From: Verrucomicrobiota bacterium
Lineage (GTDB): Bacteria > Verrucomicrobiota > Verrucomicrobiia > Limisphaerales > UBA9464
DNA length: 32,669 nucleotides
NCBI GenBank assembly: GCA_947471985.1
Contig: CANIZL010000080.1
Coordinates: 1-32,669 of the forward strand
Direction: 5' to 3'
Part shown: positions 9,601 through 30,510 of the stretch, in pieces
Numbering within the stretch: the first letter of the stretch is position 1
How the letters are laid out: every line of letters begins with the position of its first letter
Position numbers and translations under genes: made by a program
The notes under the pieces: generated by a model
The model's input: the letters and a program-made list of their open reading frames with translations, nothing else
Database searches by the model: none
Told to the model about the DNA's origin: nothing

Positions 9601-10209
9601 ATTCGCGATTGCGCCCTCGATTACGCCGGCTTGCTGGATCGGAAACGCACCCCCGGCGGGGCCAGTGTGAAGCCGTATCAACCGGCGGGTTTGTGGGAGG
9701 AGAAAATGTTCGGTGGAAATAAATACGAGGAAAGCACCGGGCCGGATCGTTATCGCCGCAGCCTCTATACGTTGTGGAAACGCACGGTGTTGAATCCCAC
9801 CCTGATGACCTTCGACGCCCCGGATCGGGCGATCTGCACCGAACAGCGGAGTGTGACCTGCACGCCCTTGCAGGCCTTTGTCACGCTCAACGAAAAGGGC
9901 TTCATCGAGGCCGCCCGCGTCTTCGGCGAACGGATCCTGGCCGAGGGCGGGGCGGATCTGGATCAACAAATCACCTTTGCGTATCGAACGGTGCTGGCCC
10001 GGCCGCCCTCCACGCGGGAGCGACAGATCGTCGCCGAAGTCCATGCCGACATGCGGAACACGTATCAGAAGAATCTCCAGGCGGCGGTGGATTTGCTGGC
10101 GCACGGCGAGCCCCGACAGCCGGAGAAACGCAGCAGCCTCGATCTGGTGGCCTGGACCGCGGTGGCCAATCTGTTGCTGAATCTCGATGAAGCGATTGTG
10201 AAAGAGTAA
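6607..10209 (+). CDS. PSD1-type protein with PSCyt1 cytochrome, DUF1549 and DUF1553 domains
   Basis: A 1200-aa exported protein with the complete family architecture. The start chosen is ATG 6607 because it places a charged N-terminus ([11 protein letters not shown]) directly before the hydrophobic signal segment [13 protein letters not shown]; an in-frame TTG at 6568 is less likely. PSCyt1 carries the heme motif C58-L-A-C61-H62 followed by GPD, and MPPKK as possible distal ligand. DUF1549 (about 170-380) has [27 protein letters not shown] and a second CxxCH at C347-C350-H351 with DHKYDP. A long insert (about 480-760) contains a carbohydrate-binding-like beta-sandwich. DUF1553 begins near residue 885 ([12 protein letters not shown]). 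The two heme motifs suggest electron transfer at the envelope, but no reaction is established. It is followed after 17 nt by a DUF1501 gene. Confidence 0.9.
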
Positions 10210-10226
10210 CCCCGTTCCTTGAGCCT

Positions 10227-11696: not shown

Positions 11697-11848
11697 GTGG
11701 CTGCGAACGCACGCCGTTGGACGGGCCCGGGTCGTGGGCTTATCGATGGCCGGATAGAAACGTGAACCCCGCATTGAAGAACGATCGTTGCGACCGCGGC
11801 CACTTCGGGAGCAGCCTCACCCCGCAGGTTGGAACTCTGCGCCCATGA
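11693..11848 (+). CDS. Candidate small protein (51 aa) bridging two DUF1501 genes
   Basis: ATG 11693 overlaps the stop of DUF1501 copy 2 as ATGA, and the frame's own TGA (11846-11848) overlaps the ATG of DUF1501 copy 3, again as ATGA. The frame therefore fills the 148-nt gap exactly, with translational-coupling overlaps at both ends. The peptide starts [20 protein letters not shown] and ends [10 protein letters not shown]; it is polar, has two cysteines, no signal peptide and no membrane segment, and I recognise no family. It may be a real small protein, or a spacer kept open so ribosomes can pass to the next gene. The double overlap is seen directly; function is unknown, and chance cannot be excluded. 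Confidence 0.45.
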
Positions 11849-13284: not shown

Positions 13285-13330
13285 TTCGGCGCCCGGGCCG
13301 GGGGTGCGATCCGAGATCGGCAGGCGTCCG

Positions 13331-14851: not shown

Positions 14852-14874
14852 CCGCCGGTCAAAGCATCCGGCGG
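14852..14874. terminator. Hairpin between converging operons, possible terminator
   Basis: CCGCCGG at 14852-14858 pairs perfectly with CCGGCGG at 14868-14874 across a 9-nt loop. It straddles the stop codon of the minus-strand acyl-AMP ligase and lies 45 nt past the plus-strand sulfatase stop, where the two transcription units meet. There is no U-rich tract on either side, so a Rho-independent terminator is not fully satisfied; the position is the main support. Confidence 0.35.
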
Positions 14875-16418
14875 AGGGCGGGGTAATCCACTTTGGCGTT
14901 GTGCCGTTGATCCACCGGAATGCGTCGAACAAAACGGATCTGATCCAGGCGCGCCCAGGCGAGTCGCGCGGTCAGATCCTGAGGCGTCAGGCCCTGCACC
15001 GCTTCCACCACCAGCCAGCGCTGGCCTTGCCAGGCAATCAGCGCGGAGCGGCGCACAGCGGGGTCTTGCTGGGCGGCGCATTCCACTTGGAACGGATAGA
15101 TCACTCCGGCGGCATCCTGAATCCGTTCGCGGCTGCGACCGAGGAGCCAGACCCGGCCACGCTCATCAAGATAACCGGCATCGCCGGTCTTGTGCCACGT
15201 GCGGCCGTCGACACTCAGTTTGGTTTCCGCGTCGCCAATGCCGTTCAGATAGCCCGGTTGCACATGGGGTCCGTTGACCACAATTTCACCAAATTCACCG
15301 GGGCTCAGCGATGCCGCCCCAAAGGCATTGGCTGAAACGGCACCGTCCATTCCGCGCGCTCCCTCTCGCAGGATGCGAAGCTGGATGTCGGGATCGGGAA
15401 ATCCCGACAGCAACCCGCGACCTGATAGCATGCCTTGCCGATCTTGGGCCGTGATTTCGTTCAGGCTGATTTTCGCAATGGGTTCGGCCTCCGTGGAGCC
15501 GTACACCGCCACGATCTCGGCCGCGGGAGCCATCGCCTGCAATTGATCCAGCAAGCGGGGAAAGACCGGGGCGCCACCGGTGAACACGCGTTTGAGCGAC
15601 CCCAGAGTTTCACCCGTGGCAGCGCAGTGTTCCGCCAGGCGCGCCAGCAGGGCTGGTGAGGCACTGACCCGATCCGGGCGGTGTCGTTGGAACTGTTGCA
15701 ACACCGGGACCGGATTCACCCGAGCGGGGGCCCGCAGATCCGCATTGGGCAGGATCGAAGTGACGCCGCTGGCGAGATTGGCGAGGACGAAGATGGGCAG
15801 GGTGGAGAAATCCACCTCGCCGGGTTGCAAGGCGAGGCTGCGTTCAATGACCCGTTGTTGTTCGCGCAGGAATCCGTGGGTGCGGACCGCCGCCTTGGGT
15901 TCCGCTGTGCTGCCGCTGGTGAAACGGATCAAGGCCGGGTTCGTGGCGGTGCAGGACGCCAGGCGCGGCACAGCGCCCGTGAAACCGGGCGCGATCAAAC
16001 GGGTGGCACCTGGAATGAATCCGCGCGTGGTGAACTTCCGGGGAATCCGGCAGAGCCCCGGGGAGAGGCACCGCAATGCATGTGCGGCCGGACTGCCAAT
16101 AAAAGCCAGCGGCGGATTCAAGGCGCAGCAGGAATCGATGTGTTTCCGGCCGGCCGATGGATCCAAAAACATCGCCACCAGACCCAGTCGGAAAAGGGCA
16201 CTCAGCGCGATGTAAAGTTCCGCCGACATCGGGACGAGCACCAGCACCGCGTCGCCCGGACGCAAACCGGCCGCCTGAAGCTGACCCGCGGCCTGCGCGG
16301 CGGCGTCGGCCAGTTCGCGAAAGGAGGTCGTTCGGACTTGGCCCCGCGGGTAGTCAATAATGGCCGGTTGATCCCCACTGGATGCCGCGCGGTCGCAGAG
16401 GATTTGGGCGACGTTCAA
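14859..16418 (-). CDS. AMP-dependent acyl ligase (fatty acyl-AMP/CoA ligase family)
   Basis: A 519-aa adenylate-forming enzyme that would activate a carboxylic acid, probably a fatty acid, with ATP. The phosphate-binding loop FTSGSTAEPKA is at residues 166-176, the adenine motif YGSTE starts at Y306, and TGDAGYLDERGRVWLLGRS is near 411. The C-terminal subdomain ends with HNAKVDYPALRR, holding the catalytic-type lysine. Local sequence is reminiscent of OleC-like ligases, but no OleA/B/D genes are present and there is no carrier protein here. The start is TTG 16418, overlapping the upstream stop as TTGA; the much longer open frame upstream runs antisense-like through the neighbouring gene and is not used. 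It is the last gene of the minus-strand cluster, and may feed acyl groups to the GNAT protein or the reductase. Confidence 0.85.
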   Translation of the reverse strand: MNVAQILCDRAASSGDQPAIIDYPRGQVRTTSFRELADAAAQAAGQLQAAGLRPGDAVLVLVPMSAELYIALSALFRLGLVAMFLDPSAGRKHIDSCCALNPPLAFIGSPAAHALRCLSPGLCRIPRKFTTRGFIPGATRLIAPGFTGAVPRLASCTATNPALIRFTSGSTAEPKAAVRTHGFLREQQRVIERSLALQPGEVDFSTLPIFVLANLASGVTSILPNADLRAPARVNPVPVLQQFQRHRPDRVSASPALLARLAEHCAATGETLGSLKRVFTGGAPVFPRLLDQLQAMAPAAEIVAVYGSTEAEPIAKISLNEITAQDRQGMLSGRGLLSGFPDPDIQLRILREGARGMDGAVSANAFGAASLSPGEFGEIVVNGPHVQPGYLNGIGDAETKLSVDGRTWHKTGDAGYLDERGRVWLLGRSRERIQDAAGVIYPFQVECAAQQDPAVRRSALIAWQGQRWLVVEAVQGLTPQDLTARLAWARLDQIRFVRRIPVDQRHNAKVDYPALRRML

Positions 16419-17479
16419 GGGGCCAAGGGAGCAGCGATTTCCGTGACATCGGACCGGTTTCCCAAGGCGCGATGATACAGTGCGTAGCGGCGGAAAGGAC
16501 GGGCGTAGCGGGCGCTGAGGCTGGTGGAGGGATTGCCGTCCTGCATGAGGGCGTGAATGACCCGGCGATACCCGAGTCGCCGCGCGGCCCGGTGCGTCTC
16601 CTGCGTCAGCCAGCGGCCCAGGCCGGCGTAGGTTCGATCGGGAATCACCGCGAGGGTCTTCAGGATCACCGTATCCACCGGTTGCCCCCGCCGGGCGGCG
16701 AGCAAATCGGGCACGTTGAACACGTAACCCACCGCCTGACCGCGGTGCATGGCCACCAGAATCAACTCCGGCCGCAGATACGGAAACAGTTGGCTGAATT
16801 CCCGGCGAAAAACTTCTTCCGGCAGCGGTTGATAAAGGAATCCTCGCTGAAAGCTCGCCAGTGTGATCCGATGAAATTCGCCCAACTCCTGGTCCAAGTT
16901 CCGCGGATCCAGCGGGCGCAGCGTGATGCCAAGCACGCTTAACACCTGTTCGGCATGCCGAGCCTTGGGATCCTCGAGCTCCAAATTGTCCGTAACGGTG
17001 GATCGATAGTGCGCCAGCGGCGTGAACCCGGCCGACGCGAAATGCTCGCACCATTCGTGGGGTGTGTCCGGCTCCAGCAGGAACGGAGGCTCATCCCCGC
17101 GTTCGGTGACGAGGCGGTAGCGTCGCCAGGTGTTGCCGTCCATGGGTCCCACGGCCTGGGTGCAGTCGTGGGCCGCCAGTTCGGCACAAACCTCGTTCAG
17201 CAGTCCCCGGCCGGCCGCCGCGGTGGCCGCGGCATAGTGCCCAAGAATGCCCAAGCGCTGGCCGGGCACCGGTGGCGTTGCGTCCCACCACAGCGAACAC
17301 CGGGCTTCGATGTGGCCGCTCGCATTCCGCCAGACCCGATGCGCATTCGCGCCGTGACGGGCGATGTCCTCGGGATCAAACGGTGGCAGGAGCGTCTCGG
17401 CCGCGGTTGGGGCGAGGGCGGATTCGGCCGTCGTTGGTGAGGGGGGATTCACGGCGCGGGGCGGGGCGGAATTAGACAA
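16415..17479 (-). CDS. GNAT-like N-acyltransferase
   Basis: A protein of about 354 aa resembling two-part GNAT acyltransferases. The N-terminal half has AVGPMDGNTWRRYRLV, PPFLLEPDTP and an AGFTPLAHYRSTVTDN phrase; the C-terminal half has ILVAMHRGQAVGYVFNVPD, a beta-bulge region VILKTLAVIPDRTYAGLGRW that would carry the acyl-CoA pyrophosphate loop, and GYRRVIHALMQDGN. It probably transfers an acyl group from CoA, acyl-AMP or a carrier to an amine. The start is unclear: TTG 17479 has GGAGG just upstream and overlaps the BtaA-like stop; TTG 17494 and GTG 17452 are alternatives. The downstream acyl ligase overlaps its stop by TTGA, which fits a two-step activation and transfer pair. Substrate is inferred, not shown. 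Confidence 0.7.
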   Translation of the reverse strand: MSNSAPPRAVNPPSPTTAESALAPTAAETLLPPFDPEDIARHGANAHRVWRNASGHIEARCSLWWDATPPVPGQRLGILGHYAAATAAAGRGLLNEVCAELAAHDCTQAVGPMDGNTWRRYRLVTERGDEPPFLLEPDTPHEWCEHFASAGFTPLAHYRSTVTDNLELEDPKARHAEQVLSVLGITLRPLDPRNLDQELGEFHRITLASFQRGFLYQPLPEEVFRREFSQLFPYLRPELILVAMHRGQAVGYVFNVPDLLAARRGQPVDTVILKTLAVIPDRTYAGLGRWLTQETHRAARRLGYRRVIHALMQDGNPSTSLSARYARPFRRYALYHRALGNRSDVTEIAAPLAP

Positions 17480-18614
17480 TTTCCTCCACCACAAAGGTGC
17501 AATAGAAAAAGGCCTGATCGCGCGCGTGGAGACTCCGACTGAGTTCCGTTAGCGAACGCAGGCGGTCCGCCAAGGAGTCCGGTCGGTGCCGATCTGCCAG
17601 CGTATTCCAGTACGCGAGGCGCGCGCCCGGGCGGCCGGATCGGATTAATCGGTCGAGCAATCGGTGATAATTCTCCGCCGACATATACTCGAAAATGTCG
17701 CTGAGATTAAAGGCCCCAAACGTGCCGGCATCGACGGTTTCCAGATAATTTTCGAGGGGCTGACAGTGCCATTCGAGGCGATCCAGTCCGTCGCGGATGG
17801 GGGCAAAGTTCTCCGGTCGCAGCGCGAAGGGCAGCGCGGTGGTGTGACTTCCGGTGAGGATCCACTGGATATAAGGATTCTCCGCCGGATTGAGCGCGGT
17901 GAGGGCGTGCCGGGTGCGGGTGAGGATGCGGTCGGCGACGCGCCCCTCGACGTAGCGGAAGAAACTGGGATCGCGGCCCAGTCGACCCATGACGAAGCGC
18001 GAGAAGAACATTTGGAACATGAGGCGCCAACGCCAGGTGTCCCAGTGGTCGCGATAAAAGGCCTCCCGCTCGTCCCGCGTTCCGCCCTGCAGGAGCCGTT
18101 CCACGGTGCGCCGGGAATGCACCAGCGGCAGCACCCGATTGCGGAAGGTGGCAAAATACCGTTCGAACTTGCCGGCGCTGCCGATGCCGGCGGCAATTGC
18201 CGCGGGTTGTGCATCCCAAAAGGCGCGTACGGCGGGCGAGACACTCCGACGGCACCGCGCGTACAATTCGGCGCGGCACGGACTGGGGCGGGAGCCGATC
18301 AATTCCAGCAGGCCCGCGTGGTCCAGTTCGCGATAGGCCGCCACCCGGAGTTCCAGGCAGGCCAGTTGCGAGGGATTCAGATCCAGCACCACCACCCGGC
18401 CGGGCGACCGGGTGAGCAGGGCGAGCGCATTGTCTCCGGCGGAACCAATCGATAGACAGTGGTCGCCCGGTTGAATGGCCAGGGCTTCCTGCAGGATGTC
18501 CGCGTCTTCCCAGCATTGTGCATAGCGGATCTGGGAAAAATCGGCGTGCTCCGCCGCCTCCCCGCGGAGGGGCGTTGCCCCTTCCACGGTGGCCGCCACA
18601 GAATCAACACTCAT
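17472..18614 (-). CDS. BtaA-like (DUF3419) aminocarboxypropyl transferase
   Basis: A 380-aa DUF3419 protein. The family includes BtaA, which moves the 3-amino-3-carboxypropyl group of S-adenosylmethionine to diacylglycerol in the first step of betaine lipid (DGTS) synthesis. Diagnostic features are IRYAQCWEDADILQEAL (the QCWED box), the SAM-binding stretch CLSIGSAGDNALALL with VVVLDLNPSQLACLELR, and the late GAFNLSDIFEYMS block. ATG 18614 is used. No BtaB N-methyltransferase is encoded in the window, so the usual end product DGTS is not predicted from this locus alone. Within this cluster it may place the aminocarboxypropyl group on another lipid or metabolite hydroxyl or amine. Family call is firm; substrate is inference. 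Confidence 0.85.
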   Translation of the reverse strand: MSVDSVAATVEGATPLRGEAAEHADFSQIRYAQCWEDADILQEALAIQPGDHCLSIGSAGDNALALLTRSPGRVVVLDLNPSQLACLELRVAAYRELDHAGLLELIGSRPSPCRAELYARCRRSVSPAVRAFWDAQPAAIAAGIGSAGKFERYFATFRNRVLPLVHSRRTVERLLQGGTRDEREAFYRDHWDTWRWRLMFQMFFSRFVMGRLGRDPSFFRYVEGRVADRILTRTRHALTALNPAENPYIQWILTGSHTTALPFALRPENFAPIRDGLDRLEWHCQPLENYLETVDAGTFGAFNLSDIFEYMSAENYHRLLDRLIRSGRPGARLAYWNTLADRHRPDSLADRLRSLTELSRSLHARDQAFFYCTFVVEEIV

Positions 18615-18641: not shown

Positions 18642-19220
18642 TTAGCGCTTTTTCGCGCGTCCGAGCAGGAGACCCACGACCACTCCCCCTGCCGCTGCCA
18701 AGCCAGCGGCCCAGGCCAGCGAGCCCTTCGCGGCATTCAGCAGCGGATTGTCGAGGACGTTCATGGAAATGTGATAACTGGAGAGCAGCCATTTGCCGTT
18801 TTCCTTGATGAGCGTGGCGGTCCAGCGGCTCTTTAATTCGAAGTCTTTGCCGAGCAGATTGTAGTTGGCCACGGTATAACCAAAGGAGATCCCGTGATCG
18901 CCGCCGGACAGGATCGTAAGTTCGTCGGGCGTGGGCGCGGTCTTATAGCCCTTGAAGGAATTCTTTCCCATCCGATCGAAGAACTCCCGCAGGCCCTGAT
19001 GACCGCGGCATACTTCGCCATTTTGCCAGGTGACCACAACGTTGGTGTGCACGTGACGGATCACGTTATCGAAGTCCCCCTTGGTGATGGCCTCCACCAC
19101 CTCGGACCGCAGGGTGCGGAGTTCGTTGTGGGCGGGATCTTCGGCGGCACGGACCGTCAGTCCGGCGGTGGCGACGGCCAGCCAACTGCAGGCGCTAAGA
19201 AACAAGAGTCGGAGTTTCAT
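18642..19220 (-). CDS. Exported NTF2/SnoaL-like protein with C-terminal membrane anchor
   Basis: A 192-aa protein. Residues 1-26 form a signal peptide (LLFLSACSWLAVATAGLTVRAA). Residues about 30-150 match the NTF2/DUF4440-like cone fold: ELRTLRSEVVEAITKGDFD, HVHTNVVVTWQNGEV, GHQGLREFFDRM and KENGKWLLSSYHISMN. A glycine- and alanine-rich hydrophobic helix (about 165-186) followed by GRAKKR forms a C-terminal anchor. The domain would therefore sit on the outer face of the inner membrane. NTF2-like proteins can be isomerases, cyclases or simple ligand binders; no catalytic residues can be assigned. ATG 19220 lies only 3 nt after the stop of the preceding phosphotransferase gene, so it is in the same operon; why a membrane-tethered external domain is made here is unknown. 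Confidence 0.75.
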   Translation of the reverse strand: MKLRLLFLSACSWLAVATAGLTVRAAEDPAHNELRTLRSEVVEAITKGDFDNVIRHVHTNVVVTWQNGEVCRGHQGLREFFDRMGKNSFKGYKTAPTPDELTILSGGDHGISFGYTVANYNLLGKDFELKSRWTATLIKENGKWLLSSYHISMNVLDNPLLNAAKGSLAWAAGLAAAGGVVVGLLLGRAKKR

Positions 19221-19223
19221 GGA

Positions 19224-21413
19224 TTATGGATTTTTGGATACTGATTTGAGGTTTTTCTCGCCGATCGGCGCACTGCGACTGCCGGTTTCGGCAGCCTTCG
19301 TTGAAGCTTCCAGTTCAACAAATCCTTCGCCGCCATGCACGATGAGCCGGGCTCCATCGGGTATGCGGGACGTGGCGTCCGGGATGCCGAGCACCGCCGG
19401 GATGCCGTATTCGCGGCAGATGACCGCGGCGTGCGAGAGCAGGCCGCCGGTTTCTGTTACCACCGCCGCCACCCGGTCCAGGACGGGCGTCCAGCCGGGA
19501 TCCGTAAAGGGACAAATCAGGATCGCCCCTTCCTCAATCCGTAGGGCCTCTTCGATCGAACGGGCCACCCGGGCTACACCGCGGACGGTTCCGTGGCTGG
19601 CCGCCACGCCGCGCAGGGCGCCACCCGGCGCCACCGGGGCAAAGGTGAACCGGGAGCCGATTTCATTGGGCGCCTTGAAGTTTCGATAACTTTCGTAACG
19701 GGCGCGATTCGCCGCGATCCGGGAGCGATCGTCCCGCAGAATCTCGGTGAAGGTCATGAAGAAGATGTCATCTCCGAGCCCCCGCTGCTCGGCCAACGCG
19801 AGCACGTAACGGCGGATCAGGTGATACATCCGGCTGGAGAGATCGCGCATCTCTTCGCGCAGCCAGAGGAAATGGCGCAGGCGATCCAGCTTCTTGGCAA
19901 ACCGCCCGCGTTGATGCCACGGGAGCCGGTCCAACGCCTGGGCGCGCGCGGCTTCATACGCGGGTCGGGGATCGGGGCCCGTGATCACGGATTGCTGCTC
20001 CAACAGCGCCCGGACCCATTCCGGATCCTCGTCCCATCGGGGCGATCGCAGATCCAATTCGCGTCGACTGTGATGGGCGAAGCGTTGCAGGAACGGGGCG
20101 AAGTCCTGGGACCCCTGCCGGGCCATTTCGCGCAGAGCCAACGTCGGGTCCAAATGCTTCAAAGCGGGCAGGGCCGCGACCAGAGCCGGAAAATCCGCCT
20201 CCGGAAAGGATTCCAAAAACGCGATCTTCGCGAGCGAGGCACAAAAGATGGTGCGGAAATAGTTCGCTTCCGTGGTGCAATACGCCTCCAGAATCAGCTG
20301 CTCAAATCCGGCCGTCAGGTCCTGCGGCAGGACCGCGAACCGCTGGTGAAGGTCGGCAAAGCCACCGGCGAGAAAGCCGCGATTGAAGCGCTCCTGGTCC
20401 CGCCAGATTCCGGGGATCCGCAGCACGGTGGGCAGGGCGCGCAGGTAGCCCCACAGGGTGGCCGGGGTGGTGACGCCGTCGCCCTCGTACTGGACCTGCA
20501 CACTGAGATCCAAATCGAATTCGCGCTCCACGAAGCCCGGGAGTTTTGCCAGGCAATGCTTCACTTCGCCCAGGTTCCAGTACGGGCGGCCGAAGAACAT
20601 CCGCCCGGCCGTAAAGTCGCCGTCCAACAGGCGAATTTCTTTCAGGAATCCCTTGAGCCCGGGCTCCCAGATGAAGTCGTACAGGGACCACATCAACGGC
20701 GTGCAAACCCCGCACGAGACCCCGCCATCGCGAAAGTCGGCGTTGGTCCATTCGCCGGTGCCCGGGGCAAATTGGATCCGGGTGATGGGCCGGGTTTGGA
20801 GGATGAAGAGCTGCCCGTTTTCGATGGCGAACTCAATGTCCTGCGGCGCTCCGAAATGGCGTTGAATCGCCAGCGCCGTTTGCTCGATGGTCGCACGATG
20901 CCGTTGCAGCAGCGGGTGGTCGGGGGGCAGCGCGGTCTGACGGCCCGCCAGCAATTCGTCGGCGAGACCTTCGCAGGCTTCGATGACCACCTCCTCGGCG
21001 CCGGTGGCGGGATTGACGGTGAAAACCACGCCGGCGAGTTCCGGTTGCACCATGCGCTGGACGATGACGCCCATGCGGAGGGCCTGCGGATCCAGTCCGG
21101 ATTTGCGGCAGTATTCGCCGACCGACGGCGCGGCCATCGATGCCTCACAGCGGGCCACCGCGTCGGTGACTTCCGCGAGCGTGCGGCGATTGAGGAAACT
21201 TTGGAATTGGCCGGCGAAGGAGAATTGCGCGCCGTCTTCGGCGGACGCGGAGGAACGGACGGCCAGCGGCGTGCCCAGGTGTTCGATCGCCCGGGCCAAG
21301 TCGGGCGGTGAGCAAAGGAACTCCGGGACGCAAAATCCCGCCTGCTGCAAGGCGCGTAGTTGGCGGGCCTTGCCGCCCAGGTCGCGGCCGAGGGGTTCAA
21401 GGGGTTGGATCAC
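19224..21413 (-). CDS. PEP synthase-like / rifampin phosphotransferase-like enzyme (copy 1)
   Basis: A 729-aa multidomain phosphotransferase. The N-terminal ATP-grasp domain has LGGKARQLRALQQAGFCVP, LAVRSSASAEDG, FSFAGQFQSFLN, GVVFTVNPATG and QDIEFAIENGQLFILQTRPI. The middle third (about 240-560) is unlike PEP synthase. The swivelling phosphohistidine domain ends the protein, with catalytic H661 in GGLLSHAAVICREYGIPAV. The C-terminal PEP/pyruvate barrel of true PEP synthases is missing, as in rifampin phosphotransferases, which use ATP to phosphorylate a hydroxyl and release AMP and phosphate. The middle region would then bind the acceptor, here unknown. The start is GTG 21413, overlapping the upstream stop as GTGA. 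A second, divergent copy lies on the other side of the fusion gene, implying two phosphorylation steps or a heteromer. Confidence 0.85.
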   Translation of the reverse strand: MIQPLEPLGRDLGGKARQLRALQQAGFCVPEFLCSPPDLARAIEHLGTPLAVRSSASAEDGAQFSFAGQFQSFLNRRTLAEVTDAVARCEASMAAPSVGEYCRKSGLDPQALRMGVIVQRMVQPELAGVVFTVNPATGAEEVVIEACEGLADELLAGRQTALPPDHPLLQRHRATIEQTALAIQRHFGAPQDIEFAIENGQLFILQTRPITRIQFAPGTGEWTNADFRDGGVSCGVCTPLMWSLYDFIWEPGLKGFLKEIRLLDGDFTAGRMFFGRPYWNLGEVKHCLAKLPGFVEREFDLDLSVQVQYEGDGVTTPATLWGYLRALPTVLRIPGIWRDQERFNRGFLAGGFADLHQRFAVLPQDLTAGFEQLILEAYCTTEANYFRTIFCASLAKIAFLESFPEADFPALVAALPALKHLDPTLALREMARQGSQDFAPFLQRFAHHSRRELDLRSPRWDEDPEWVRALLEQQSVITGPDPRPAYEAARAQALDRLPWHQRGRFAKKLDRLRHFLWLREEMRDLSSRMYHLIRRYVLALAEQRGLGDDIFFMTFTEILRDDRSRIAANRARYESYRNFKAPNEIGSRFTFAPVAPGGALRGVAASHGTVRGVARVARSIEEALRIEEGAILICPFTDPGWTPVLDRVAAVVTETGGLLSHAAVICREYGIPAVLGIPDATSRIPDGARLIVHGGEGFVELEASTKAAETGSRSAPIGEKNLKSVSKNP

Positions 21414-23911
21414 GATCTTCCCTCCGGTTGGGGCGTGCCAAAGACACTGGCGCGTTTGTAGTCCGCCAACGTGAATCCGTGGCGCTCGGCCAGTTGCGTG
21501 ACGCGGGCCACTTGCTCGGCGGTGATTGCTCCGGTGTGCAGCAGATCGCGCTCGCCTTCGAAACCGAAGAGCAAGGCTTCGGCCATGCAGCCATACGTCT
21601 GGCCGGGGGGCAGGGGGAAGTCGATGATCTCCAGGTCCTCCCGGCCCGGCAGGGAAACAATACCCCCTTTAATGAGCAAGAGATCCGGCCGTTCCTGCGC
21701 GGCATCGGCGGGCAGGCTCGACGGCACGGAAAGATCACAAACGATCGCGTGACGGGCCAGGTACGAGGCGTGCAACGGGGCGTCGACCGCATTCAGCGCG
21801 GCCACCACCACCTGCCCGTCGCCGACGGCCGCGAGGTCCGTGCTGATCACGGACCGCGGAATGGAGCGGGCGAACATTTCCAGGCGGTACGCAGAACCGG
21901 GTTTATTGCTGCCCACCAGGATCGTGCGGGCGTAGCGGGGTGCGAGGATCTCGGCGCAAGTGCGGCCGATGTTCCCGCCGGCGCCGGCCACCACGAGGGT
22001 GGATTCGCCGGGAGGCCGACCGGTTTCGCGATGGGCCCGTTCGATGGCCTGCAAGGCCAGGGCGACGGCGTAGCTATTGCCGGTGGTGACGCCCATGCCG
22101 CCCGGGGCCACGCGCGTGCCGTTGAGCGTGACGATGGAGGTGTATTGGCCGAGCGAAAACAACTGGCACCCGAGCGATCGGGCCACCTGAATGCCCTGTT
22201 GAACCAGCGCCTGCGGGGCGGCGAGGCAGCGGGCGTCGATCATGCGCTTGGCCCACGCAGAGGTGAACGGGAGCAGGATCGGATTGAGACGCACTACCTG
22301 GCCCGTTCGGGAACGAATGTCGACGGAGCTTAACACCACCGGAGCCGCCCGGGACACGAGGCCGGCGAGGAAGGATTCCCGTTCGCGAAACGAGAGGGCA
22401 TCGAAGGATGGCTCCAGAGAGACCAGATCGTCGGCGTCCATCAAGTGGCAGAGCCACGCCACACGGGAGGTGGGAACCTGCGCCTCGCGTTGTCGGAAGC
22501 GCACTTCGTCGTACACGAGGAACCGGGAGTCGGTCCGGGTGACCACGTTGAAGGCTTCCGTAGCCGGCGGACCCCAGGTCAAAAAGCGGCTCAATCCCAA
22601 GGCATCATTGGCCCCGAGACGTGAACAGACGTCATCGAGCGCGGCGAGAAAGCGGAGGATATCCTGCTCCTCCAGAAGTGCCGAGGGTTCGAGCCGCAGC
22701 GTAAACGGATCGCTCAAGGTTGGAGCAATCCGGATCTGATGCACGTTCAGCAGGTAACCGGCGAGGATGAACGTCAGGTCCTCCACGGCGGCGAGAAAGC
22801 GAAGGAGAAAACTGGGCGACCGCGCCGGGCGACGAAACTCCACACCGATCATCAGTCCCTGCCCGCGAACGTCGGCAATTACGCCGGGATATTGCGCGGC
22901 CAGGCGTCGCAGACCGTTCAGCAGGCGGTCCCCCTTGGTGCGACAGGCCTCCAGGAGCGGAGGGTCGATCAGCTCCAGAGTTTTCAGGGCGATGGCGCAG
23001 GAAAAGTCGTCCTCGGCAAACGTGCTGGTGTGTTTGAGTTCGAATTCCGGCTGATACCGCGAGCGACGGATCAGGACGGCGGAGATTTTGGCCAGACCGC
23101 CGCCGAGGGATTTGGAGAGGATGACGTAGTCGGGTTGAACACCCAGCCCCTCGCTGGCGAGGAAAGTGCCGGTACGGCCGAGGCCGGTCTGGCATTCGTC
23201 GGCGATCAGCGGCACGTCATGTTCCGCGCAGAGTTCGGCGGCCCGTTGGGCAAAGCGGGCACTGAGGGCGCGGACCCCGCCTTCGCCGATAATCGGCTCA
23301 AAGATAAACCCCGCCAGATTGGGAGTGGTGGCAAACGCCTCCTCCAACTGTTCCAGGTTGTCGATTTCAATCCGTCGCACCGGCAGACTGCTCAGTTCAA
23401 ACGCCTCGCGGTAGCCGGGATTCGAGGTCAGTTGCAGGGCCCCCAGGGTCTTGCCGTGAAACGCCCGATCCAGGGCAATGAAGGTGCGTCCGCCCGTTTC
23501 CCACAGGGCGTGCTTCATGGCGGCCTCCACGGCTTCGGTGCCGGAATTGCCGAAGACGACGCAATAATCGCCATTGGCCCGCTGGGCGAGTGCTTCCGCC
23601 AGTTGCGCGGCCAGTTCCCGGCGGGAGCCCTGGACGTGCATGGGACGCCCGCTGGCGAGCACGCGTTGGGCCTCCGCCACCAGCACCGGATGCGCGTGTC
23701 CGAGGAGCAGGGAGCCGTAGCCGCCGACGAGATCCAGCACCGCCACCTCGGCGCCCTCTTCATCGCGATAGTACAAATGATCTCCCTGTCCCCGCTCGTA
23801 GGAGACGTTGAGATGCAAGGTGTCCAACAAGGCCTGGAGACGCGGCTTGAAGCGGCGATCCCCGGGGCGCCGGTTGCGTGGAGTCGTGGCCTGGCGCGAT
23901 TCCATTCTCAT
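21410..23911 (-). CDS. Class III aminotransferase fused to acyl-ACP reductase-like domain
   Basis: An 833-aa fusion. Residues about 20-440 are a class III PLP aminotransferase: VFGNSGTEAVEAAMKHA (phosphate site), FIFEPIIGEGGVRALS, PLIADECQTGLGRTG (PLP-ring aspartate) and the Schiff-base lysine K267 in ILSKSLGGGLA. Residues about 475-830 resemble cyanobacterial long-chain acyl-ACP reductase (AAR): LGQYTSIVTLNG, TTGNSYAVALALQAIE, the nucleotide loop GAGGNIG (643-649), LLIKGGIVSLPG and QTYGCMAEALLFGFEG, where C775 aligns with the AAR acyl-cysteine nucleophile. AAR reduces acyl thioesters to aldehydes. One polypeptide could thus reduce an acyl thioester and transaminate the aldehyde to a primary amine; this coupling is inference. 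ATG 23911 overlaps the previous stop (ATGA). The AAR half without PCC-type aldehyde-deformylating oxygenase nearby argues against alkane synthesis. Confidence 0.82.
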   Translation of the reverse strand: MRMESRQATTPRNRRPGDRRFKPRLQALLDTLHLNVSYERGQGDHLYYRDEEGAEVAVLDLVGGYGSLLLGHAHPVLVAEAQRVLASGRPMHVQGSRRELAAQLAEALAQRANGDYCVVFGNSGTEAVEAAMKHALWETGGRTFIALDRAFHGKTLGALQLTSNPGYREAFELSSLPVRRIEIDNLEQLEEAFATTPNLAGFIFEPIIGEGGVRALSARFAQRAAELCAEHDVPLIADECQTGLGRTGTFLASEGLGVQPDYVILSKSLGGGLAKISAVLIRRSRYQPEFELKHTSTFAEDDFSCAIALKTLELIDPPLLEACRTKGDRLLNGLRRLAAQYPGVIADVRGQGLMIGVEFRRPARSPSFLLRFLAAVEDLTFILAGYLLNVHQIRIAPTLSDPFTLRLEPSALLEEQDILRFLAALDDVCSRLGANDALGLSRFLTWGPPATEAFNVVTRTDSRFLVYDEVRFRQREAQVPTSRVAWLCHLMDADDLVSLEPSFDALSFRERESFLAGLVSRAAPVVLSSVDIRSRTGQVVRLNPILLPFTSAWAKRMIDARCLAAPQALVQQGIQVARSLGCQLFSLGQYTSIVTLNGTRVAPGGMGVTTGNSYAVALALQAIERAHRETGRPPGESTLVVAGAGGNIGRTCAEILAPRYARTILVGSNKPGSAYRLEMFARSIPRSVISTDLAAVGDGQVVVAALNAVDAPLHASYLARHAIVCDLSVPSSLPADAAQERPDLLLIKGGIVSLPGREDLEIIDFPLPPGQTYGCMAEALLFGFEGERDLLHTGAITAEQVARVTQLAERHGFTLADYKRASVFGTPQPEGRS

Positions 23912-26496
23912 GCTTTTAGGGTAGCCAGCGGAGCCGCCGGCGGGCGAATTGATAAATCAGATTCACGCAACCCGGAAAGCGATGTCAGGGGCGTGGGTTC
24001 CAGCCGGCGGACCCAGCCGGTGCGACCGTCCAGTTCCACTTCGTCGCCGTCTTGCAGCCAGGCCGTAAGGCCGTCGATGGCGACAATTGCCGGCAGGCGC
24101 AATTCCCGGGCGACGATCGCCGAGTGCGACAACAGGCTGCCCCGCTCGATGAGCAGAGCGGCAGCGGAGGGAAATACCAGAATCCAACCGGGATCGGTCC
24201 GCTCGGCCACGAGAATCTCGCCGGGATGGAGATTCGCCGAACGCGGATCCGTCACCTTGCGCACCCTTCCGCGGACGATGCCCGGGCAGCATCCGAGCCC
24301 CCGGCGCGTCTCGCCGCTGGAATCCGGTGCGATGGTGTCGGGCGCGGTCCAGAGAGTGTGGGCGGTGATTTCGCCCTCGGTGGTGAAGCGTCGCGGCGGC
24401 GCGGGCATCGCGCGGTAGCGGGCGAATTCCGCCTGCCTTCGGGCCACGCGTTCCCGGAGTTCGACCGCAGCGGGAGCCGGGAGAGCCAGCGCCTCGTCGA
24501 GTTCGAGATGGAAGATATCGCGTGGATCCGCGAGGTGCCCGCTGGCGTGCCGGTGGCGGCCGAGTTCGACAAACAAACGACGTACCCGACCAAAAAGGCG
24601 GGTACGCTCAAACCGCAGATTCTCGCGATCCCGCACCCGGGCGCGGGTATTCCGCAGGACCCAGCCAAAGATCCACCGCCGCATTCGCTGGCCGGAGAGC
24701 GCGGCCTGACAGCGTTGCTCAGCCAGGATTCGGGGTGCAATGCCGGTGGGGACTGCGGGGCGGCTGCCCGACGTGCGGGCGAATTGACCGATCGCCCGGA
24801 GTAGCATCAGCGGATCATCATGCAGCGTCAGGGTCTCGAGCTTCAATTCCTCCAGGCAACGTTCGCCAAATACCGCCAAATATTCGGCGTAGCCGGCGGC
24901 GAATTCCGGGTAGCCGGGCAGCATCGCTTCAATCTCCGACCGCGATCGATCGCACAACGCCGTCACCAATTCCGGTTTGGACGCGGCCAGTCGGGCCAGT
25001 TCCGCAATCCGACGGGCGGGTTCCGCACTGATGATTCCGCCTTCATCGCACAGGAGATCGTTGGACAAGGTTCCCTCGGTGTCGTCGAGCCACTTCGTCG
25101 TGAGACGACGCAGCACCCCGAAGAAGATCATCGCGAAGAAATCGTTGAGCAGCGGGGCATCCCAACGCGTGAGCAGGCGGACCTCCAGATCGCGGAAATG
25201 GGCGATTAATTCTTCGGGTGACCGGGCGGTCAGCGGCGGACCAGCCGGGGCCAAGGCGGCATTCAGGCGGGCTTGAAAAAGGCGGATTTTTCGCGGCAAC
25301 AGAAAGTGATTCGCGATCAGTGCGACCACACTGAAGGCTAGATCCAGGCCATCCCGTACGCGCGCCCGCAGACTGGCGGCACCCAGGTCCGCGAGGACCT
25401 CAGCTGGGAGTTCCTCTTTGACGCCCATCATCTGCTCCATGAAGCGGCGATTCAAGGTGAACCCCGGCAGCAGGGCCAGGACGCGGTACCAGTTGATGAG
25501 ATGGTAGTACACCCGGCCCTGCACCAGGCCGATCATGTTTCGGAAAGTCTGGTCCTGCGCCCGCAGCTTCCGGTGAGGCACCGCCAGGATCTGACAGAAT
25601 TGCCGGTAGACACCCTCGTAAGCCCGGCGCGCAAACGAGAAGGTCAATGGCGTGGTGACGCCGCTATAGCTCTCGATGATGTTGCTGTTGTCCCAAATGG
25701 TCTGCGGGCCGCGGGGCGGCAGGGTGGTGATCGGACGCGCTTGGAGCAGGTACAGGACGCCACCGGCGATCGCCCATTCCACATCCTGCGGACCGCCGAA
25801 AATCAAGCCCAAGCGCCGGGCCAAAGCCGCGACGGCGACGATCTGCGCGTCTTCCAGCACCGGCAGTGGGCCGGCAGTTTGGCGGGTCAATAGACCGCCG
25901 GCGGGATCGACCTGCCACGTGTCCGCATTCGCGGTGCCGTCCACCAACGCATCACCGAGGCCGCTCACGGCAGTGACAATCACCCGATCGGTCTGACCGG
26001 TGACCGGATCGGCACCAAAGGCGACTCCGGCGACTTCGGCTTCGACCATGCGTTGGACGATGACGGCCGGTGGCCGGGTGGCGGCGGGAAGTTGGCGCTG
26101 TTCGCGGTAAGCGCGTACCCGCTCGCTGGCGGCGGATCGGGCCACCGCCAGCACGCGATCGGGCACATCCGCGGTGGGCACCCGCAGAAAGGTTTCGAGT
26201 TGCCCGGCAAAGGAATGCTGTTGTCCGTCTTCCTCGTGCGCGGAGGAACGCACGGCCCATTGGCCGTCGTGCGGGGCCAACTTTTGCAGGCCGGCTGATA
26301 ATTCCCGCACCGCCGCCGATGTGAGCCCCGGTGTGACCGCACCATTGGGTTCGCGAATCTCCGTGAACGCTTCGGGAAGGACCGCAAACCAAGCCGGTAT
26401 TGCCAGCTCACGTCCATGCAGCGCGGCCAGCGTCCCCGCCTTGCCGCCGAGCGCTGCTCCTTGGGTCGATGCCCCGGGCCAGTAGCAGGCACTCAT
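23908..26496 (-). CDS. PEP synthase-like / rifampin phosphotransferase-like enzyme (copy 2)
   Basis: An 862-aa phosphotransferase with the same plan as copy 1. ATG 26496 (MSACYWPGAS) overlaps the UbiA stop as ATGA, so a longer in-frame start at 26748 is rejected. The ATP-grasp part shows LGGKAGTLAALHGRELAIP, WAVRSSAHEEDG, QHSFAGQLETFLRV, IVQRMVEAEVAGVAF and QDVEWAIAGGVLYLLQARPI. The middle segment (about 300-700) is longer than in copy 1, with hydrophobic stretches such as LDLAFSVVALIANHFLL, hinting at lipid or membrane contact. The swivelling domain has H791 in GSLLSHSAIVARELRLPAIV. There is no PEP-binding barrel. It probably phosphorylates a hydroxyl on a hydrophobic acceptor using ATP; the acceptor is unknown. 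Confidence 0.83.
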   Translation of the reverse strand: MSACYWPGASTQGAALGGKAGTLAALHGRELAIPAWFAVLPEAFTEIREPNGAVTPGLTSAAVRELSAGLQKLAPHDGQWAVRSSAHEEDGQQHSFAGQLETFLRVPTADVPDRVLAVARSAASERVRAYREQRQLPAATRPPAVIVQRMVEAEVAGVAFGADPVTGQTDRVIVTAVSGLGDALVDGTANADTWQVDPAGGLLTRQTAGPLPVLEDAQIVAVAALARRLGLIFGGPQDVEWAIAGGVLYLLQARPITTLPPRGPQTIWDNSNIIESYSGVTTPLTFSFARRAYEGVYRQFCQILAVPHRKLRAQDQTFRNMIGLVQGRVYYHLINWYRVLALLPGFTLNRRFMEQMMGVKEELPAEVLADLGAASLRARVRDGLDLAFSVVALIANHFLLPRKIRLFQARLNAALAPAGPPLTARSPEELIAHFRDLEVRLLTRWDAPLLNDFFAMIFFGVLRRLTTKWLDDTEGTLSNDLLCDEGGIISAEPARRIAELARLAASKPELVTALCDRSRSEIEAMLPGYPEFAAGYAEYLAVFGERCLEELKLETLTLHDDPLMLLRAIGQFARTSGSRPAVPTGIAPRILAEQRCQAALSGQRMRRWIFGWVLRNTRARVRDRENLRFERTRLFGRVRRLFVELGRHRHASGHLADPRDIFHLELDEALALPAPAAVELRERVARRQAEFARYRAMPAPPRRFTTEGEITAHTLWTAPDTIAPDSSGETRRGLGCCPGIVRGRVRKVTDPRSANLHPGEILVAERTDPGWILVFPSAAALLIERGSLLSHSAIVARELRLPAIVAIDGLTAWLQDGDEVELDGRTGWVRRLEPTPLTSLSGLRESDLSIRPPAAPLATLKA

Positions 26497-27437
26497 GGGG
26501 TGTGTCGGGACAGGCGACTCAACCACGGCACGGCGCCGAGGCTGAGGTACGTGGCCAGCGTCCAAAGGCCGGAGAAATGCTCCAGCCAGCGGGCGGTGGC
26601 GTGAACCGGGCGGACGACGAAGCGGGCGGCCAGAAGCCCCGCAATCGCGAGCAGCCCGCCCAGAATCAGCAGCGTCATCTTTTGGCCGTTGAACGCGGCC
26701 GAGGCCGCCACCGCGCAGCCGGCCGTCACGGCCAACGCACCCCACCACGCCGCCGCGGCCGTTCCGCGTCCCCAGAGCCGACTATACGTGCGCACGCCTT
26801 CCTCCTCGTCGCCCGGCGCCCGCGTTTTCCGGCCGATTTCCAATCCGATGCCATTGAAAAAACTGACCGCGATGAACCAGCCCAATCCCGTCGGCGGCGT
26901 GTTGCCCGCCACCACCCAATCACAGGCCGTCGCATATAAATCCGTTAGCGGCAGGATCAACATGTGGGTCCACAGGTAGGTGATGGGTTGTTCGCGAATC
27001 CAATCCCGGACGAAGAACTCGCGGGTCATCAAGGCCAGATAAGCCCAGGTGACGAGGAGCAGTGGCACCAGGCGGGCAGACCACCAAAGCGCGAGGCCCA
27101 GTTGAAGCAGGGCCGTGAACGCACCGATCCAGCCTAGTTCGCGGAGTTGGACCAAGCCGCGGGGAACCGGCCGATAGGGGCGATAACGGGAGTCTTCATC
27201 AAAATCCTTGAACTCATCCGCGATGCGCAATTGCAGAAAGATGCCCAGCGAAGTCAACCCGGCGACGAGGAGTGACGGCCAGGTGGGCAGGTCCGTGGCC
27301 CCGCGCAGCAGGCGCGAAAAACTGACCGCCGAGGCACTGAACACCGCGATGAGGAGACCGTGCGCCAGCAGTGGGAAACGTTCCCGCTGATAGATCCACC
27401 AACGTTGATTGGTCCACCGGTCCGTCCACGCCTTCAT
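26493..27437 (-). CDS. UbiA-family membrane prenyltransferase-like protein
   Basis: A polytopic membrane protein of about 314 aa. The first Asp-rich site, ADEFKDFDEDSRYRPYRPVP (from D74), and the second site near EIGRKTRAPGDEEEGVRTYS are the two magnesium-diphosphate motifs of the UbiA superfamily, separated by several hydrophobic helices. UbiA enzymes transfer polyprenyl or other lipid groups from a diphosphate donor to an acceptor within the membrane. ATG 27437 is chosen: it overlaps the stop of a 26-codon upstream frame as ATGA; an in-frame GTG at 27476 would add 13 residues. It opens the second part of the cluster and is directly coupled to a phosphotransferase gene, so a phosphorylated or pyrophosphorylated lipid donor made by its neighbours is possible. 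The donor and acceptor are unknown. Confidence 0.82.
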   Translation of the reverse strand: MKAWTDRWTNQRWWIYQRERFPLLAHGLLIAVFSASAVSFSRLLRGATDLPTWPSLLVAGLTSLGIFLQLRIADEFKDFDEDSRYRPYRPVPRGLVQLRELGWIGAFTALLQLGLALWWSARLVPLLLVTWAYLALMTREFFVRDWIREQPITYLWTHMLILPLTDLYATACDWVVAGNTPPTGLGWFIAVSFFNGIGLEIGRKTRAPGDEEEGVRTYSRLWGRGTAAAAWWGALAVTAGCAVAASAAFNGQKMTLLILGGLLAIAGLLAARFVVRPVHATARWLEHFSGLWTLATYLSLGAVPWLSRLSRHTP

Positions 27438-27610: not shown

Positions 27611-29167
27611 TTAGTGAGTGGCGCTCGCCAGCGGTGGCGCACCCAAGGCCGTCGGGACGGATTTCAGGTATCGGAAGGCGACCAGCGCGGCCAGGCCACA
27701 CAATCCGGCGGCGAGTTGGGCCACGCGTCGAAAGGCGTCCACAAAGGCGAGTTGGATGGAAGTTTTCACGTCGGCTTGATCTGCTGGCCGCAACTTCGAC
27801 GGCGGTTGTGCGTCCGCCATTTTCACCGCTTCCTGCTTTAGTAGGAGCCGCGCTTCCACGGGCAGGTTCAGGCGGGCGGTTCGGGCTTCGAGCGAACGTT
27901 CAAACGAAACCAGGGCGACCGGACCCAGTAGGGCGATGGCCAGGACTCCGGCGAGGCGCGTGAGTGTGCTATTGATGCCGGAGGCCAGTCCGAGCTGCCC
28001 GGGCGGAACGGCGCCGATTACGGCCGTGTTCAGCGGGGTGGCCGTCAATCCCAGTCCGGCCCCTACCAGCAGCAACCCGGGCAAAAAGGAACCTGCAAAA
28101 TCCGCCGGACCGCGGGTGATCCCCGGCCAGGTCAGTAACCAAAAGCCAGCACCGGTGACGAGCGATCCCAACGTCAGCGGCAGGCGCGGGCCGTGGCGAT
28201 CCACGAAGCGACCCGCAAAACGCGACAGCAGAATCAGTAGGGCCATCAAAGGTAGCTGACTCAGTCCGGCCAAGGCGGGATCATAGTGCTGCACCTGGAT
28301 GAGGTTCAGCGGCAGGAAAAACAACATGCCGTGGAAGGCCATGAAGAATAACAGGCTCACGCCGCTGGCGGCGGTGAGGGGTACCGAGCGAAACATTCCC
28401 AGCGGCAGCAGCGGATGTGGGGAGACCTGTTGCAGGCGCAGGAAAGCCAGCAGCGCAAGCACCCCGAGCACGACGGCGCCCCAGGTGAGAAAGCCGTTGT
28501 GGCCGGGCTTCGATCCTTGGATGAGTCCGTGAGTCAGGGCGGCGAGGCCGAGGGTGACCGTGATCGCCCCCCACCAATCCACCCGGGGCGCAGGCGACGC
28601 GGGTTGATCGGCCGGGGTTTTCCGCAGCAGGACCAGCAGGGCGAAAATCGCCAACGGCACATTGATGAAGAAAACCCACCGCCACAGGCCCGCGCGTGCC
28701 AGCAAGCCGCCCAGCACCGGCCCCGCTGCGGTGGCGAGGACACTGCAGGCCGACCAGGTCCCGATCGCCCGCCCCCGTTCCGCCGGGCCGAAGTAGGTGG
28801 AGATCATTGCCAGCGCTCCCGGAATCATCAAGGCACCGCCCACCCCTTGGGCCACCCGGGCGGCAATCAGCGCGTGGACTCCCGGTGCCAAGCCACAGGC
28901 CACCGAGGCCAGGATGAAAGCGAGGATGCCCGCGACAAAGACCCGCCGCCGTCCAAAGGCATCTCCCAGTCCGCCGCCCAGCAGTAGCAGGGCCGCGAGT
29001 GGGAGGGAGAATCCATTGGTCACCCAAAGTAGATCGGCCCCGCCGGCGCCGGTATCGGCCTGCAGGGCCGGGAGGGCGATGCTTAGGGCGGTGCCGTCGA
29101 TGAACACCATGCTGGACGCCAGCACGGAACTCACCAATACCCAGCGGGCCGTGGCCGTGGTCTTCAT
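27611..29167 (-). CDS. MFS drug/metabolite exporter, DHA2 (EmrB/QacA) type
   Basis: A 518-aa integral membrane protein with about 14 predicted transmembrane helices, as in the DHA2 proton-antiporter group. Family marks include ASSMVFIDGTALSIALPAL in helix 1, WVTNGFSLPLAALLLLGGGL, motif A as GDAFGRRRVF, ARVAQGVGGALMIPGAL and the antiporter motif C AAGPVLGGLLA. It is expected to pump a small hydrophobic or amphipathic compound out through the inner membrane. ATG 29167 overlaps the P450 stop as ATGA, so it is coupled to P450 and sulfotransferase, and the likely cargo is the product of this cluster. The loop at about 440-470 (MADAQPPSKLRPADQAD) before the last helix is normal for the group. Substrate is inference. 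Confidence 0.88.
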   Translation of the reverse strand: MKTTATARWVLVSSVLASSMVFIDGTALSIALPALQADTGAGGADLLWVTNGFSLPLAALLLLGGGLGDAFGRRRVFVAGILAFILASVACGLAPGVHALIAARVAQGVGGALMIPGALAMISTYFGPAERGRAIGTWSACSVLATAAGPVLGGLLARAGLWRWVFFINVPLAIFALLVLLRKTPADQPASPAPRVDWWGAITVTLGLAALTHGLIQGSKPGHNGFLTWGAVVLGVLALLAFLRLQQVSPHPLLPLGMFRSVPLTAASGVSLLFFMAFHGMLFFLPLNLIQVQHYDPALAGLSQLPLMALLILLSRFAGRFVDRHGPRLPLTLGSLVTGAGFWLLTWPGITRGPADFAGSFLPGLLLVGAGLGLTATPLNTAVIGAVPPGQLGLASGINSTLTRLAGVLAIALLGPVALVSFERSLEARTARLNLPVEARLLLKQEAVKMADAQPPSKLRPADQADVKTSIQLAFVDAFRRVAQLAAGLCGLAALVAFRYLKSVPTALGAPPLASATH

Positions 29168-30510
29168 CGGTGGAGCGTCATGGGCAAGCCGTGGCGGGTG
29201 CGCAGGGTGATGCCGGGCAGGGGTTCCACCGGATGCCCGGGCTGCCGGCGCAATTGATAGGTTTGCAAGATCTGGGAGAGGATCAGTTGTGCCTCCAACA
29301 TGGCAAATTCACTACCGATGCAAAACCGCGGTCCGGCACCGAAGGGCAGGTAAGCCTCAGGCACCGAGTGGGCGAATCGGGTGGGATCAAAACGTTCCGG
29401 CTGGTCCCAGAATTTTGGATGTCGATGGAGGACGTAGGGAGCCAACACCACGGTCGAGCCGGCCGACAGACGAAAGCCGCCGACCTCATCCTCGCTCACC
29501 ACCCGCCGTTCAATGATCCAAATCGGCGGAAAGAGGCGCATCGATTCCTGCAGCACGTGTTTTACGCCGGTCAGCCGCGGGAGATCCTCCAGCGTCGGGA
29601 CGCGGTTGCCGAGCGCCTCCCGAATTTCTCCGCGCAGACGCGTGGCCACTTCCGGATGTTCCGACAAGAGATGGAAGGTCCAGGTCAACGCATTGGCCGT
29701 GGTCTCGTGCCCCGCCAGCAGGAACGTCACCGTTTCATTGCGCAACTGTTCATCGGTGAAGCCCACGCCGGTCTCGCCGTCACGCACGCGCATCAAAGTG
29801 TCGAGCAGGTCGCGATCCGGCGCCGCGTCGGTGGCCCGCCGACGGTGCTCGGCGATGATCCGATAGACGACCTCATTGACGTCCCGCAGCGCCGCTTGAA
29901 AGCGGCGGTTCGTCGGGGTGGGGGCCCAGTCCGGCCAGTTAAAGATCCGGCCTAGTCGACCAAAAGTGTGCGGCAGAATGACGGCCATGGCGCGCTCCAG
30001 GGTGTCCGCGTCCGTTCCGACATCCGTGCTGAACAGTGTGCGGCCGACGATCGTGAAGGTGAGCCGCATCATTTCCCGGGCGATGTCGAGGGGCGCCGTG
30101 GCATCGGAGCGGGCCTGCCAACGTTGCACGAGTTCGGTAGTGGCGGTGGTCATCTGCCGCGCGTAACCGACCAGGTGCTGTCGATGGAAGGCGGGCTGGG
30201 CCAATCGACGTTGTCGCTGCCAAAACTCGCCATTGCTGGTCAGCAGGCTGTCGCCGGTTACCGACTTGATGAAACCGGCGCTGCGGGTGCGTTTGTCGAA
30301 ATTCTGGTGATGGGTCTGCAGCACATGCCGCACGTGATCCGGATGATTGAGCAGGTGGACGATTTGTGGGCCAAGGCGGAAGCGCACGACATCGCCAAAG
30401 TCGGCGGCCGACTGCCGCATCAATCCCAGCACGTCGCGACGGAAATCGGGCAGATTCCCCAGTAGCCAGTTGCCCCGGGGCCCGGGGGCCCGGCTTGGAG
30501 TGGGATTCAT
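29164..30510 (-). CDS. Cytochrome P450
   Basis: A 448-aa soluble cytochrome P450 that would insert oxygen into an organic substrate. The oxygen-activation I-helix motif AGHETT is at 266-271, ExxR at E322-R325 (ESMRL), and the heme-binding loop FGAGPRFCIG has its cysteine ligand at C397. The short proline-rich start (PSRAPGPRGNWLLGNLPDF) and the FWQRQRRLAQPAFHRQHL C-helix region resemble the CYP102/CYP110-like fatty acid and terpenoid hydroxylases, but the subfamily cannot be set by eye. No reductase domain is fused and no ferredoxin gene is adjacent, so redox partners must come from elsewhere. ATG 30510 lies 4 nt after the sulfotransferase stop. A hydroxyl made here could be the site for sulfonation; that is inference. 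Confidence 0.9.
   Translation of the reverse strand: MNPTPSRAPGPRGNWLLGNLPDFRRDVLGLMRQSAADFGDVVRFRLGPQIVHLLNHPDHVRHVLQTHHQNFDKRTRSAGFIKSVTGDSLLTSNGEFWQRQRRLAQPAFHRQHLVGYARQMTTATTELVQRWQARSDATAPLDIAREMMRLTFTIVGRTLFSTDVGTDADTLERAMAVILPHTFGRLGRIFNWPDWAPTPTNRRFQAALRDVNEVVYRIIAEHRRRATDAAPDRDLLDTLMRVRDGETGVGFTDEQLRNETVTFLLAGHETTANALTWTFHLLSEHPEVATRLRGEIREALGNRVPTLEDLPRLTGVKHVLQESMRLFPPIWIIERRVVSEDEVGGFRLSAGSTVVLAPYVLHRHPKFWDQPERFDPTRFAHSVPEAYLPFGAGPRFCIGSEFAMLEAQLILSQILQTYQLRRQPGHPVEPLPGITLRTRHGLPMTLHR

Follow-up and report, generated by a model that had tools for sequence, protein, structure and literature searches.

Genes at the locus

The DNA analysed here, a stretch of 32,669 nucleotides from a Verrucomicrobiota bacterium (contig CANIZL010000080.1; hereafter the window), carries a gene for a class III transaminase fused to a domain resembling acyl-ACP reductase (AAR), together with the following neighbours.

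14859..16418, minus strand: AMP-forming acyl ligase, PRK09274/OleC-like, 519 residues
16415..17494, minus strand: GNAT-like acyltransferase
17472..18614, minus strand: DUF3419 protein
18642..19220, minus strand: SnoaL-like/DUF4440 protein, with what look by eye like a signal sequence and a hydrophobic segment at the C terminus
19224..21413, minus strand: short PEP-synthase-like protein (PEPS-short), 729 residues, swivel His kept
21410..23911, minus strand: transaminase/reductase fusion, 833 residues, ATG at 23911, the AAR-like half being a putative thioester reductase
21413..22597, minus strand: AAR-like C-terminal domain of the fusion (residues 439–833), used as query in structure and PDB searches
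23908..26496, minus strand: long PEP-synthase-like protein (PEPS-long), with PPDK_N and PEP-utilizers domains, swivel His kept, PigC/RedH/Rph-like
26493..27437, minus strand: UbiA-superfamily membrane protein (reading frame open to 27476)
27611..29167, minus strand: MFS efflux transporter of the DHA2 type
29164..30510, minus strand: cytochrome P450
30515..31648, minus strand: sulfotransferase family protein

The fusion reading frame, for which the initial annotation had named no strand, is real and lies on the minus strand. Read in that direction, the genes for UbiA, PEPS-long, the fusion, PEPS-short, the SnoaL-like protein, the DUF3419 protein, the GNAT-like protein and the AMP ligase follow each other with overlaps or at most 30 bases between them, and the sulfotransferase, P450 and MFS genes precede this operon. 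The start of the fusion gene overlaps PEPS-long by 4 bp and its stop overlaps PEPS-short by 4 bp. For PEPS-long, the likely start is the ATG at 26496; a GTG-started frame open to 26748 would overlap UbiA. We rejected a 731-residue reading of the AMP ligase, as its N-terminal ~210 residues run into the GNAT gene and the start at 16418 gives a 519-residue protein with a full AMP-binding match.

The two PEPS-like proteins scored 189–277 bits against the PigC/RedH models NF052631 and NF052632, whose cut-offs are 1300 and 1350, so that the relation is one of resemblance only, and the best PDB matches for both were 5hv1–5hv3 and 5fbs, which we take to be rifampin phosphotransferases. The DUF3419 protein had no PDB sequence match; its family presumably includes the BtaA-type 3-amino-3-carboxypropyl transferases. 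A search of the contig for PP-binding domains found no acyl carrier protein (ACP) gene within the window. With regard to a tandem-ACP protein of the PigH type, none was present on the contig and the nine PP-binding domains of the genome included no closely spaced pair. The plus strand at 2169–14806 of the window encodes a sulfatase together with DUF1501-type proteins and two PSCyt2/PSD1 (DUF1549/DUF1553) proteins. Such a combination is common among Verrucomicrobiota and Planctomycetota, and it is apparently unrelated to the operon.

The two halves of the fusion protein

The N-terminal half of the protein, at residues ~20–430, matched Pfam Aminotran_3 (PF00202) over residues 34–374 with an E-value of 1.1e-72 and has CrmG and PigE as its closest PDB relatives. 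Its PLP lysine K267 is the Lys within LSKSLGGG, in agreement with the class III assignment that had been made initially. The C-terminal half, at residues ~470–833, had been called AAR-type from a GAGGNIG loop and C775, and this description was also borne out. In phmmer searches of the PDB it matched the reductase half of PigE (4ppm, 5.9e-14) and AAR (6jzq/6jzy, 1.2e-10), with the loop at residues 643–649 aligned with the AAR-type loop and C775 paired in sequence with the catalytic C294 of AAR and with C296 of PigE. In the C294S mutant AAR entry 6jzz the residue opposite C775 is Ser, which confirms the register of the alignment, and as far as sequence can tell C775 is the counterpart of the AAR catalytic cysteine. 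A Pfam search of the domain gave no family above cut-off and no match to Shikimate_DH. The TIGR04058 model gave 58.3 bits (7.6e-16), far under its curated cut-off of 449.7 bits, and the strict AAR name is therefore unearned for this domain.

Two further genera of the family have relatives of the whole fusion, at 69 and 64% identity (the latter split across two contigs), as has a planctomycete metagenome-assembled genome (MAG) at 59%; plasmid-borne fusions at ~30–34% were found in Paraburkholderia phymatum, Photobacterium, Leisingera and Haematobacter. All seven aligned fusions share K267, the glycines G643, G646 and G649, C775 and E778. Given relatives at such distances, the pairing of the two domains with their motifs appears to be more than chance. 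The reductase domain is rare, occurring in 3 of 50 genomes of the family and, among 388 genomes sampled across the phylum, solely in the window's own. With a PLP-lysine transaminase joined to a domain having both the loop and the cysteine, the protein would belong to the TamH-type transaminase/AAR fusions.

Predicted conversion of an acyl thioester to an amine

Pigment and alkaloid pathways already provide examples of a single protein that takes a thioester to an amine. PtTamH, of the tambjamine YP1 pathway in Pseudoalteromonas tunicata, has like the present fusion an N-terminal class III transaminase and a C-terminal AAR-like reductase, and its published description also matches with regard to a GxxGxxG loop, the catalytic Cys, the PLP Lys and an acyl-activating partner (PMC9594044). 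Together with TamA, which joins an adenylating domain to an ACP, PtTamH converted C12 acid to C12 amine in vitro with NADH and L-Glu, gave the aldehyde when no amino donor was present, and used ACP-bound C12 whereas C12-CoA was not accepted (PMC9594044). It differs in having 941 residues against 833, in having an ACP-carrying partner, and in that we saw no bipyrrole (MBC) genes in the window, whose host belongs to Verrucomicrobiota. The tambjamine pathway also uses a PigC-type ligase.

The same domain order is found in PpKTFusion/KecF and in fusions from Thermaerobacter and Thermincola, for which transaminase activity on aldehydes was shown and in which the AAR-like partner was recognised by structural similarity; PpKTFusion sits in a type II FAS/PKS cluster, and the comparable clusters tabulated were from Proteobacteria and Streptomyces, with no Verrucomicrobiota named (PMC10829540). 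PigE of the prodigiosin pathway, which in cell lysate took a thioester to aldehyde and on to amine, shares both domains, with Cys296 at the position of C775, but in reversed order, the reductase coming first (PMC8341465). Membership in the PigE family itself was rejected, the present fusion having its transaminase first and scoring 343 bits against a cut-off of 850 for NF053554. Cyanobacterial AAR (6jzq/6jzy; TIGR04058), finally, has the nucleotide loop and Cys294 in common with the fusion domain and is its best fold match, but it is a stand-alone enzyme paired with an aldehyde-deformylating oxygenase (ADO) for alkane synthesis. No ADO (PF11266) was matched in the bacterium's own genome, which is 96% complete, under conditions where the Synechococcus elongatus control was matched, and an AAR/ADO alkane pathway was rejected for this lack. 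The presence of an AAR-type domain in such a fusion had initially been considered notable; with PtTamH, PigE and PpKTFusion already described, the fusion as such is no novelty, and what is new is its lineage, Verrucomicrobiota, and its operon setting.

We consider it very probable that the fusion is a TamH-type transaminase/thioester reductase, converting an acyl thioester by way of the aldehyde to a primary amine. By homology to the characterised fusions, the AAR-like domain should load an acyl chain from its thioester carrier, either ACP or CoA, onto C775 and release it as the free aldehyde with NAD(P)H as reductant, whereupon the PLP domain would form the primary amine by transaminating the aldehyde at K267 with an amino-acid donor. 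Both reactions and their order are thus predicted from characterised relatives, and the reading of acyl thioester to aldehyde to amine, as initially suggested, finds good support by analogy in PtTamH, which has the same architecture and motifs and performs both steps in vitro. The acyl chain may well be fatty, and the aldehyde may be channelled between the two domains. From the gene context, the AMP ligase is the candidate for activating the acyl chain, although it could instead act on another acid of the pathway. The same context suggests that the adjacent ATP-dependent PEPS-like enzymes and other operon products probably build the amine into a lipid or lipid-like metabolite, which the MFS pump would export. 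To be counted against a TamH-type activity is the lack of an ACP gene in the window, whereas PtTamH needs an ACP-bound substrate.

Among the proteobacterial relatives, some carry additional domains. An ORF of 955 residues on plasmid pBPHY01 of Paraburkholderia phymatum (L020:13755–16622) has an N-terminal ACP domain (PF00550, 24 bits against a cut-off of 20.8) before the transaminase–reductase pair, with an AMP-forming ligase gene next after it, and judged by its domains this chain combines three of the four functions of TamA/TamH. A 1395-residue protein on a plasmid of Leisingera sp. M527 (L022:13959–18146), annotated as an aminotransferase only, has the transaminase, the reductase and a C-terminal AMP-binding domain, and is possibly a free-acid-to-amine enzyme. 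Fusion of an ACP or acyl-adenylating domain in relatives is what would be expected if the substrate were a carrier-bound acyl chain.

The same chemistry might act on another acyl group, such as a polyketide, aryl or amino-acid-derived thioester as in koreenceine-type clusters. The location of the PpKTFusion family in type II FAS/PKS clusters points in that direction, as does the homologue on a plasmid of Photobacterium sp. DA100 (L021:9382–17605), which adjoins what appear to be four ketosynthase-like genes and at least one SDR gene, with a resemblance to the koreenceine type. In the window, however, we saw no gene for a ketosynthase, PKS or NRPS, and the operon carries its AMP-forming, fatty-acid-ligase-like gene together with genes of lipid type, so that we regard a non-fatty substrate as unlikely.

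Still less probable, and in our estimation very much so, is that the reductase domain is a Rossmann enzyme of another NAD(P)-linked type, akin to shikimate or amino-acid dehydrogenases, with the aminotransferase being fed aldehyde or keto acid from elsewhere. Such a reading would be compatible with the low TIGR04058 score, with the sharing of the Rossmann part by dehydrogenases in the fold search, and with a weak Shikimate_DH match in one homologue (L023). Against it stand the lack of such a Pfam match in the window's own domain, the invariance of the aligned cysteine in all seven fusions at the position of the AAR and PigE cysteines, and the first rank of AAR in both fold searches. The latter were made with a domain model of low confidence (mean pLDDT 50.7, from a four-sequence alignment), in which the confident portion is the Rossmann part and residues 311–395 in domain numbering, which include C775, fall below 50; a whole-protein model (pLDDT 45.5) was set aside, and the low confidence of both stems from only four sequences being alignable. 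Using this domain model, Foldseek placed AAR first (E=1.7e-12), with shikimate dehydrogenase well under it (~2e-5), and VIA-align 2 also gave AAR first (Z 17.3, 139 residues covering the Rossmann part, rmsd 3.4). The outcome named initially as speaking against the assignment, a fold like that of shikimate dehydrogenase with no cysteine aligned, was hence not seen in the low-confidence model, and the Pfam result and Foldseek ranking together led us to reject shikimate dehydrogenase as the best explanation.

A catabolic direction, with deamination of an amine to aldehyde and oxidation of the latter to the acyl thioester, is hardly credible, for although both half reactions are reversible in principle, as is established chemistry, the neighbouring genes for ligases, a P450, a sulfotransferase and an exporter make up a biosynthetic setting, and the characterised relatives run reductively.

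Operons carrying or lacking the fusion

The fusion is found in the same operon, with the PEPS-like, UbiA, SnoaL-like, DUF3419, GNAT and AMP-ligase genes, in three related verrucomicrobial genomes. In one of them (G031), the MFS, UbiA, PEPS-long and fusion genes lie together on one contig, and at two loci (L001 and L002) the order of fusion, PEPS-short, SnoaL-like, DUF3419, GNAT and AMP ligase is kept. The reductase domain, PEPS-short and the DUF3419 protein each have orthologues at >60% identity in 3 of the 50 family genomes, and the three genomes coincide exactly; PEPS-long is found in two of them, and in the third the contig stops right before the fusion. PEPS-short adjoins the fusion in all four genomes examined, and at the planctomycete locus it is retained with it. 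Downstream of this pair, the planctomycete MAG (L003:7749–10320) has a short PEPS-like ATP-binding piece and, beyond it, genes that by eye are diacylglycerol-kinase-like and thymidylate-kinase-like.

Relatives of PEPS-long were more widespread: of 289 genomes sampled from the phylum, 17 have one, with the window's own counted. In two of three verrucomicrobial surroundings examined, and on a plasmid of the alphaproteobacterium Roseinatronobacter, they belong to operons of one and the same fusion-free order, namely UbiA, PEPS-long, DUF3419, a multi-span membrane protein of ~437 residues, GNAT and AMP ligase.

L058:523-8507: fusion-free operon, Roseinatronobacter plasmid
L060:7303-15791: fusion-free operon, Verrucomicrobiota
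L061:8515-16866: fusion-free operon, Verrucomicrobiota

The fusion, a PEPS-short orthologue and the SnoaL-like gene are all absent from these three operons, and at the third verrucomicrobial PEPS-long locus (L062) no further gene of the operon was found nearby. The membrane protein of L058 matched no Pfam or NCBIfam family, and neither the window nor the fusion loci yielded a credible relative of it; an RKxVHV motif in the ~437-residue protein recalls, we assume, dolichol/phytol kinases. On a Streptomyces clavuligerus plasmid (L059:9026–12849), a PEPS-like gene is immediately followed by one for a UbiA-like hypothetical protein, which adds another instance of the UbiA/PEPS pair. We found no description of the DUF3419/UbiA operon in the open-access literature. 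The ebo cluster, with its UbiA-like EboC, was set aside, as we take its other genes to differ from those of this operon.

The backbone operon also occurs with the membrane protein and no fusion, which makes the fusion module look like a variant cassette within a more widespread operon. The product of that operon is probably a lipid, judging from its acyl ligase, UbiA and DUF3419 genes. Tentatively, and with somewhat more doubt than belief, we suggest that fusion, PEPS-short and SnoaL-like protein form a swappable amine-making cassette, which in Verrucomicrobiota would replace the membrane protein and give an amine-linked variant lipid.

The one-protein conversion of a carrier-bound acyl chain to an amine, a useful biocatalytic step, would hereby be extended to Verrucomicrobiota and a planctomycete, and the relatives fused to an acyl carrier or acyl-activating domain lend themselves to comparison in engineering work. 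The main interest lies in the conserved operon itself, which occurs across phyla with and without the fusion module and probably makes a lipid that is yet to be described.
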